Assembly (NCBI RefSeq): GCF_000468495.1
Contig: NC_022444.1
Span: 3,061,681-3,125,680, forward strand
Length of the DNA stretch: 64,000 nucleotides
Direction: 5' to 3'
DNA from: Megalodesulfovibrio gigas DSM 1382 = ATCC 19364
GTDB lineage: Bacteria; Desulfobacterota; Desulfovibrionia; Desulfovibrionales; Desulfovibrionaceae
Shown here: piece after piece, positions 52,844 through 55,423 of the stretch
Numbering within the stretch: position 1 is the first letter of the stretch
How the letters are laid out: the number at the start of each line of letters is the position of its first letter
Notes under the pieces: model-generated
What the model was told of the DNA's origin: nothing
Seen by the model: the letters and a program-made list of their open reading frames with translations, nothing else
The model's database searches: none
Position numbers and translations under genes: made by a program

Positions 52844-53863
52844 ATGCACGATCTGAATCAGCTCATCCGATCCATTGCCCAATACGAGGACGACGCCCCC
52901 CGCCAGGCCGAGGGCGCAGACCTGCTGCTCTATTGTCCCTGCCCGGTCAAGCTGGTGGCCAGGGACCGTGTGGAGGCCATTGCCGCAGCCAGCCGGGATG
53001 CCGGCGTGCCGCTCACGGTGCGCATCCCCATGGGCTGCACCAGCGTGGACCCCTACGACCCCCTGTTCCAGGAGCCGGACCCGGCCCGGCTGCCGGGCAT
53101 CATCGCCTCCATCGGCTTCGGCGATTTCTGGAAGCGCACCTTCACGCAGCGTCATCTGCAGGGCGATCTCTTCAAGGCCGTGCTCCCGCCACGCCTCAAC
53201 CCCCTGCATGTTCGCGCCGGGCTGGTGGATCCCCGGGGGCGGTACAGCATCTACGGCGTCACCCCGTACATCTTCCTGGTGGACGATCGCAAACTGGGCG
53301 ACGTGCCCGCCCCCCGCGTGTGGGCCGATGTGCTGGATCCCAAATACAAAGGCATGCTGGTGATGTGCGGCGACGGCGACGACATGGCCGACGCCGTGGT
53401 CATGAACATCCACAAGGAGTTCGGCATGGAAGGCCTGCAGGCCCTGGCCAACAACGCCAAGTGTCTGCTGCACTCCTCCGAAATGGCCAAGGTGGCCGGC
53501 ACCAACGATCCGCGCGCCGCCGCCGTGTTCATCATCCCGGCATTCTTCGCCGCCAGCGTCCGGCCCACCTCCCATGTGCGCATGGTCTGGCCCGAGGACG
53601 GCGCCTGCGCCTCGCCCCTGTATTTTCTGGCCAAGGCCGCGGAGCACGAGCGCCTGGCCCCGCTCCTCAACTTCTTCCTGCATGACTTTGCCGCCATCGA
53701 CAGCGCCCGCTGGTTCGTCCCCATGGCCGAGCACGACTCGCCCCTGCCCGAGGGCGCGTCCCTCAAGTGGGTGGGCTGGGACTATGTGGAGCAGTTCGAC
53801 GTCAACCGCCTGCGCGAGGAATTGCACCCGGTGTTCCGCACCCTGCTGCGGGAGCGGCGATGA
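52844..53863 (+). CDS. Cytoplasmic substrate-binding-fold protein of a permease-less ABC-like operon
   Basis: The sequence follows the periplasmic iron/solute-binding (type II) fold: an early LLLYCPCPVKLVARDRVEAI, then YGVTPYIFLVDDRKLGDVP, WADVLDPKYKGMLVM and AVFIIPAFFAASV. Yet it has no signal peptide and must stay in the cytoplasm. The CPCP motif near residue 30 could bind a metal. Its stop overlaps the start of the NTPase gene (ATGA). In this operon it may be a cytoplasmic carrier or scaffold for a metal or cofactor. The ribosome-binding site is weak. Confidence 0.65.
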   Translation: MHDLNQLIRSIAQYEDDAPRQAEGADLLLYCPCPVKLVARDRVEAIAAASRDAGVPLTVRIPMGCTSVDPYDPLFQEPDPARLPGIIASIGFGDFWKRTFTQRHLQGDLFKAVLPPRLNPLHVRAGLVDPRGRYSIYGVTPYIFLVDDRKLGDVPAPRVWADVLDPKYKGMLVMCGDGDDMADAVVMNIHKEFGMEGLQALANNAKCLLHSSEMAKVAGTNDPRAAAVFIIPAFFAASVRPTSHVRMVWPEDGACASPLYFLAKAAEHERLAPLLNFFLHDFAAIDSARWFVPMAEHDSPLPEGASLKWVGWDYVEQFDVNRLREELHPVFRTLLRERR

Positions 53864-54639
53864 ACGAGCCTTCCCAGCCGGAACAGCCGGCACAGCCGAT
53901 ACCAGCGGCACGGCCCATCCGACTCATCACCGTGGCCGGGCCGCCGGCCTGCGGCAAGACGGCGGTGGTGGCCAAGACCTGCGGCAGGCTGCGCGAAGCC
54001 GGAGTCTCCACGGCGGTGATCAAGTTCGACTGCCTGCAGACCAGGGACGACACCCTGTACCGGGCCGCCGGCGTGCCCGTGAGCGTGGCCCTTTCCGGCG
54101 GGCTGTGTCCGGACCATTTCTTCGCCTCCAACCTGGAAGAGGCCTTTGACTGGGCGCAGGAGACCGGGGCGGACTGTTGCATCATCGAGACTGCCGGCCT
54201 GTGCAACCGCTGCTCCCCGCACTTGCGCGGCGTGATGGCCCTGTGCATCATCGACAACCTGATGGGCATTGATGCACCGGAAAAAATCGGCCCCATGCTC
54301 CGGCTGGCCGATCTGGTGCTGGTGACCAAGGGCGATCTCGTGTCCCAGGCCGAACGCGAGGTCTATCGCCATCGCATCCGTCAGATGAACAGCCGCGCCG
54401 TCATCCGCCACGTCAACGGCCTCACCGGCCAGGGCTGTCAGGAACTGGCGCAGATTCTGGCCATGGCCCCGGCCGTCTCCTCGGTGACGGACATGAAGCT
54501 GCGCTTCTCCATGCCCGCGGCCGTCTGCTCCTACTGCCTGAGCGAAACACGCATCGGCTCGAAATATCAGAAAGGCAACGTGCGCAAGGCGGATTTCGGC
54601 ATCCGGCCCGTCCAGCAGGAGGCGCAGCATGGGGAGTGA
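53860..54639 (+). CDS. HypB/CobW-like P-loop NTPase, cysteine-rich
   Basis: Walker A is GPPACGKT near residue 27, the switch/Walker B region is IIETAGLCNRCSPHLRG, and the base-specificity motif is TKGD, all typical of the SIMIBI GTPases HypB and CobW. A C-terminal CSYC pair (SETRIGSKYQKGN follows) and many other cysteines suggest metal binding. HypB inserts nickel into hydrogenase and CobW relatives handle cobalt or zinc. Here the partners are the substrate-binding-fold protein and the ABC ATPase, with 4- and 11-base overlaps, so a metallocentre-assembly role is inferred. Confidence 0.75.
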   Translation: MNEPSQPEQPAQPIPAARPIRLITVAGPPACGKTAVVAKTCGRLREAGVSTAVIKFDCLQTRDDTLYRAAGVPVSVALSGGLCPDHFFASNLEEAFDWAQETGADCCIIETAGLCNRCSPHLRGVMALCIIDNLMGIDAPEKIGPMLRLADLVLVTKGDLVSQAEREVYRHRIRQMNSRAVIRHVNGLTGQGCQELAQILAMAPAVSSVTDMKLRFSMPAAVCSYCLSETRIGSKYQKGNVRKADFGIRPVQQEAQHGE

Positions 54640-55423
54640 GACCACCATCCGCGCCATTACCGTGACTGCCGGCCAGGACAAGACCGGACTTCCCGAGGCC
54701 CTGGATCTGACCTTCCGCACCGGCGAGGTGGTGGCCCTGCTGGGCCCCACGGGATCGGGCAAGAGCCGGCTGCTCTCGGACATCGAATCCCTGGCCGACG
54801 GCGACACCCCCTCCGGCCGCCGCCTGCTGCTGGACGGCCGCGCCCCCACCGCCGAGGAGCGCTTTGCCCTGCATGGCCGGCTGGTGGCCCAGCTGACCCA
54901 GAACATGAACTTCGTGCTGGACATGGGCGCCCAGGACTTCATTGCCGCCCATGCGGAAAGCCGCGGCATCGCCGATCCTCCCGCCGCAGCCCGTCAGGTG
55001 ATCGATGCGGCCAATGCCCTGGCCGGCGAACCCTTCGCCCCGCACACCCAGCTGACGCAACTCTCCGGCGGGCAGTCCCGGGCCTTGATGATCGCGGACA
55101 CAGCCCTGCTGAGCTGGTCCCCGGTGCTGCTCCTGGACGAGATCGAGAACGCCGGCGTGGACAAGCGCGCCGCCATGCGGCTGCTGCTCAACAGCGAGAA
55201 AATCGTCGTCATCGCCACGCATGATCCGGTGCTGGCCCTCAGCGCAGACCGGCGGGTGGTCATCGCCAACGGCGCCGTGGCCGCCATCCTCACCCGCACC
55301 CCGGCAGAGGAAGCCCTGCTGGCCCGGCTGGCCGGCCTGGAAAACGGCTTGGCCGCCCTGCGTCAGCAATTGCGTACAGGCGGGGAACTGGGAGACTGGG
55401 CAGCATTTTTTCAGGAGAAATAG
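54629..55423 (+). CDS. ABC ATPase without a permease gene
   Basis: This 264-residue nucleotide-binding domain is complete: GPTGSGKS, a Q-loop-like TQNMNF, signature LSGGQSRALMIA, Walker B VLLLDEIENAG and VIATHDP. It starts 11 bases inside the end of the NTPase gene, with AGGAGG upstream, so it is tightly coupled. No membrane partner is encoded in the operon. It could power a soluble assembly step, as some UvrA- or SufC-type ABC ATPases do, or use a permease encoded elsewhere. Confidence 0.8.
   Translation: MGSETTIRAITVTAGQDKTGLPEALDLTFRTGEVVALLGPTGSGKSRLLSDIESLADGDTPSGRRLLLDGRAPTAEERFALHGRLVAQLTQNMNFVLDMGAQDFIAAHAESRGIADPPAAARQVIDAANALAGEPFAPHTQLTQLSGGQSRALMIADTALLSWSPVLLLDEIENAGVDKRAAMRLLLNSEKIVVIATHDPVLALSADRRVVIANGAVAAILTRTPAEEALLARLAGLENGLAALRQQLRTGGELGDWAAFFQEK

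Follow-up and report, generated by a model that had tools for sequence, protein, structure and literature searches.

A conserved operon of a cytoplasmic substrate-binding-fold protein, a G3E GTPase and a stand-alone ABC ATPase, with a genomic link to nitrogenase

Three genes follow one another on the + strand of the 64,000-nucleotide stretch of Megalodesulfovibrio gigas DNA that we analysed (the window). The first (52844..53863, +) encodes a 339 aa protein of the SBP_bac_6 fold (SBP) without a signal peptide, the second (53860..54639, +) a 259 aa HypB/UreG-like G3E GTPase, and the third (54629..55423, +) a stand-alone ABC ATPase of 264 aa. The first and second genes overlap by 4 bp and the second and third by 11 bp. 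The Pfam scores were 189.5 bits (SBP_bac_6), 48.3 bits (cobW) and 57.8 bits (ABC_tran), respectively. Coordinates and Pfam matches thus bear out the first-pass annotation, which had described three overlapping genes for a binding fold, a cysteine-rich NTPase and a complete ABC ATPase. No NCBIfam equivalog cut-off was reached by the first or second protein, nor by the third among its best 25 families listed. The same annotation had noted that no permease accompanies the trio, and this holds: none was present among the window ORFs read around it, and in the branch of relatives to which it belongs (the window clade) the operon lacks the membrane permease of an ABC importer.

Relatives were found by tblastn and profile searches, with adjacency taken from the tblastn positions; the automatic count is an undercount owing to mis-set starts and the score threshold. 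About 50 loci in Desulfobacterota and Bacillota contain the trio, which is carried by genomes labelled Desulfovibrionaceae, Desulfobacteraceae, Syntrophobacteraceae and Desulfomicrobium and, widely, by Bacillota. Because the three genes are kept together in loci of many genera, their arrangement is not due to chance, and the operon is confirmed as real and conserved. In the GTPase tree, clade A is accompanied by the SBP and a distant clade B consists of GTPase and ABC genes with no SBP found. In clade A the window type has the order SBP-GTPase-ABC, as do several further subclades; an alternative order, GTPase-ABC-SBP, adjoins Tau- or Fec-type importers. Distant GTPase-ABC pairs without an SBP were seen at L049-L051, L099-L103 and L106. 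One Desulfobacterota genome (G202) holds two different clade-A trios, one of an Anf/TonB subclade and one of an Hcp-linked subclade (L040, L045), which suggests separate clients. No riboswitch was found in an Rfam scan of 8 loci, and no conserved sigma-54, Crp-like or shared palindromic sites were found upstream of the SBP genes.

The first protein had been read as cytoplasmic, and its orthologues agree: a hydrophobic N-terminal signal was found in none of the 52 SBP rows checked (0/52), so that the trio SBP is not the exported SBP of an ABC importer. The best PDB folds for its AlphaFold model (pLDDT 89.9) were the ferric-binding proteins SfuA, FutA and FbpA. The overall fold is common to the trio SBP and the FbpA/SfuA/FutA/AfuA proteins (TM about 0.6), but the trio SBP is cytoplasmic and the sequence identity is 10–18%. 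Residue conservation was counted over 51 rows. In the CPCP motif singled out by the first-pass annotation, the second cysteine, C33 (52940..52942, +), which lies in a PCPVK loop after the first strand of the predicted model, is kept in 41/51, whereas the first, C31, is found in only 5/51. Two further cysteines, C65 in PMGCTS (53036..53038, +; 24/51) and C175 in MCGDGDD (53366..53368, +; 22/51), are kept in the window clade and mostly absent outside it.

The second protein has the hallmarks of the G3E GTPase superfamily: a GPPACGKT P-loop, ETAG (the G3 ExxG motif), TKGD (G4), a Pfam cobW match and a HypB-like fold. HypB and UreG were the best PDB folds for its AlphaFold model (pLDDT 90.6), and the catalytic-motif residues G32-K33-T34, E110/G113 and K157/D159 are invariant in relatives. 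Six further residues are invariant in 63/63 relatives: C83 and H86 of a CPDH motif (54106..54117, +), C115 and C118 of a CxxC directly after the G3 motif (54202..54213, +), and C223 and C226 of a C-terminal CxxC (54526..54537, +). In a profile alignment, C83 falls on the metal-site cysteine of HypB, which we take to be a metal ligand in that protein. The GTPase therefore has its fold, its G3E motifs and the position of a metal-site cysteine in common with the HypB/UreG metallochaperones, but it adds the two CxxC motifs and has an ABC ATPase and an SBP as partners. It scored 49.2 bits against a cut-off of 121.2 for HypB (TIGR00073) and 24.5 bits against 204.2 for UreG (TIGR00101). The Pfam cobW domain is also that of the COG0523/CobW GTPases, for which a CxCC motif has been described (PMC9164220); this motif is absent from the trio GTPase, where the cysteines are arranged as CPDH, CxxC and CxxC. 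On these features we would sort the trio with the G3E metallochaperone systems, outside HypB, UreG and COG0523.

Motif reading of the third protein located a Walker A sequence, GPTGSGK (54743..54763, +), and an LSGGQ signature (55061..55075, +); with a Walker B glutamate and an H-loop, the ABC ATPase motifs are complete here and in relatives. SufC-type proteins are soluble ABC ATPases that function without a permease in a metal-cluster context. The trio ATPase resembles them in this respect, but it is paired with an SBP and a GTPase rather than SufB/SufD.

An unexpected genomic association was that with nitrogenase, a link missing from the interpretation given in the first-pass annotation. In a set of 297 genomes from the window's order, with the trio scored by its window-type GTPase, true nifH was present in 33/34 genomes with this GTPase versus 94/236 without the GTPase family (Fisher p 2.6e-11, uncorrected for phylogeny). 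The single nifH-less carrier is an 84% complete genome. In a phylum sample, nifH was found in 16/17 clade-A carriers and in 83/378 other genomes. Nitrogenase can do without the trio, as shown by the 94 genomes of the order in which nifH is present and the trio absent. In Bacillota the association was absent (4/21 trio-plus versus 3/20 trio-minus genomes), and the co-occurrence may in part reflect lifestyle and shared ancestry. Co-occurrence with metalloenzymes or corrinoid enzymes had been put forward as a check; the metalloenzyme part is matched by nifH in the window's order, but the corrinoid suggestion is not supported, since nothing corrinoid recurs beside the trio.

Gene neighbourhoods gave a second line of evidence. 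In one genome (G883) the trio ends the nif cluster, between nifB and nifA, following the genes nifH-I1-I2-D-K-Fd-GNAT-E-N-B. In another (G744, locus L005) SBP-GTPase-ABC begin 55 bp after the end of a nifV-like gene, which scored 304 bits against a cut-off of 463 and is flanked on its far side by nifH. A sister subclade shares its island in G153 and G202 with ModE, ModD and ModABC genes and with AnfD and AnfG, both of which score over cut-off. Nitrogenase is thus found with the set in two window-type lineages that are separate from each other, and in a sister subclade as well. In the window itself and in most relatives the trio is not adjacent to nif genes. At the loci of these two Desulfobacterota (L118 in G202, L119 in G153), the Anf/Mod genes, AnfD/AnfG denoting Fe-only nitrogenase, adjoin a TonB/FecBCD island; in G362, modE-modD-modABC follow the importer island of the trio.

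In other subclades the set lies near genes for a SAM-methyltransferase, FmdE, DUF364, a TonB receptor, or FecBCD- or Tau-type importers. A permease conserved near orthologues would have counted against the earlier reading; none was found in the window clade, but these other subclades do adjoin complete TonB/FecBCD or Tau-type importers with an ATPase of their own. A metal-import island at L039 and L044 comprises genes for a SAM-methyltransferase, FmdE, a TonB receptor and a 168–173 aa protein with a molybdopterin-oxidoreductase domain, with DUF364 also at L044. One Desulfovibrio genus has an NRAMP metal transporter gene directly upstream of the SBP gene and in the same orientation (L107:5760-7022; also L004, L108 and L112). 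In one genus (L109-L111) the GTPase gene is preceded at ~2–3.5 kb by what we take to be a UPF0597 cysteine desulfidase-like gene, separated from the trio at L109 by a presumed amino-acid-transporter-like gene. Published studies connect FmdE and DUF364 with the transport and chelation of metals (PMC2954224, PMC2954201).

We also considered the cargo. NifQ delivers Mo to nitrogenase, a possible role in common with the trio, but the proteins are unrelated: the trio proteins match families other than NifQ (PF04891), and no NifQ was found in G000. In the order sample NifQ was absent from trio-plus and trio-minus diazotrophs alike, and replacement of NifQ by mutual exclusion is therefore ruled out. 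Mo as a universal cargo is likewise ruled out, by the absence of moaA from three Bacillota with a trio or pair, none of which has nifH (G401, G623 and G642; nearly all the sequence of G623 is in one contig).

The lack of signal peptides, the absence of an ABC permease common to the window-clade loci and the invariant Cys/His at the HypB metal-site position all point to a soluble metal module. We infer that the trio is a cytoplasmic, NTP-driven module for handling metals or metal clusters, which in the window clade most probably serves the nitrogenase cofactor pathway; we give this reading a probability of about one half. It keeps the soluble, non-transport, metal-related part of the metallocentre assembly line first proposed and leaves out the corrinoid part. 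In such a module the SBP-fold protein would bind an imported metal species in the cytosol, and the GTPase, with its five invariant cysteines and His86, would take the metal as a dimeric metallochaperone of the HypB/UreG type and release it when GTP is hydrolysed. With no membrane partner, the dimeric ABC ATPase would drive the docking or opening of the SBP and the GTPase. The client in the window clade would be the nitrogenase cofactor pathway, with Mo or Fe delivered towards NifB/NifEN; those of sister subclades would differ, with Fe-only nitrogenase islands in some and perhaps Hcp in others.

A broader role is rather unlikely but has several observations on its side, namely a general Fe-S or hybrid-cluster assembly or repair module with both Hcp and nitrogenase as clients, the nif link then being to another O2-/NO-sensitive cluster enzyme. 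In 8 genomes an Hcp gene is found no more than about 6 kb away, in more than one arrangement and often with Crp/Fnr-type genes, and full-length Hcp was found in 18/21 trio-plus versus 5/20 trio-minus Bacillota. A distant SBP carries DUF1858. A small protein family adjoins the clade-B pairs in six loci (with a PF04060 Fe-S domain at L051), and others lie near NifS-like or Rrf2-like genes. However, within the GTPase tree only one subclade shows the Hcp linkage, and no window-clade locus that was read has hcp as a neighbour. Every genome tested in the family has Hcp, trio or not, and Hcp was for this reason rejected as the client of the window clade.

The cytosolic SBP fold and the position between nifB and nifA in G883 would also fit a regulatory sensor, with the SBP reading out the metal or nitrogen status of the cytosol and the two NTPases acting as a switch on nitrogenase or on metal uptake; this is improbable, as five invariant cysteines and two NTPases with their catalytic motifs complete suit delivery better, and that nif operon already contains nifI1I2-like genes. 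That the proteins are parts of an ABC importer with a permease encoded elsewhere is very unlikely, despite the SBP and ABC ATPase annotation in Pfam and the importers adjoining several subclades, since none of the 52 SBP rows has a signal peptide and the adjoining importers come with an SBP and an ATPase of their own. Hardly to be expected is Ni or corrinoid maturation of the HypB/CobW/MeaB kind: the GTPase has the HypB/UreG fold and hypE/hypD-like genes lie near the trio in one genus, but they are on the opposite strand and in that genus only, the GTPase falls far under the HypB cut-off, and no corrinoid neighbour is recurrent.

More tentatively, the metal-handling module may be a dedicated nitrogenase metal-delivery machine of NifQ-less anaerobes, in which the SBP, the five-cysteine GTPase and the membrane-free ABC ATPase would pass Mo or an Fe species to cofactor assembly; this possible machine would belong, as a single branch, to a larger family of soluble metal-trafficking systems with different clients. 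Our literature search found no description of the trio, which is apparently undescribed. The plasmid nif cluster is the only one named in the portion consulted of a D. vulgaris fitness paper (PMC10102598), and the portion consulted of a paper on nickel in cable bacteria (PMC11247825) does not show the trio. If this reading holds, the trio would also put an SBP and a soluble ABC ATPase to use inside the cell, for which we found no description in the literature searched. An uncharacterised trio that lies in a nif operon, and that co-occurs almost perfectly with nifH across its clade, is a directly testable candidate for Mo/Fe supply.
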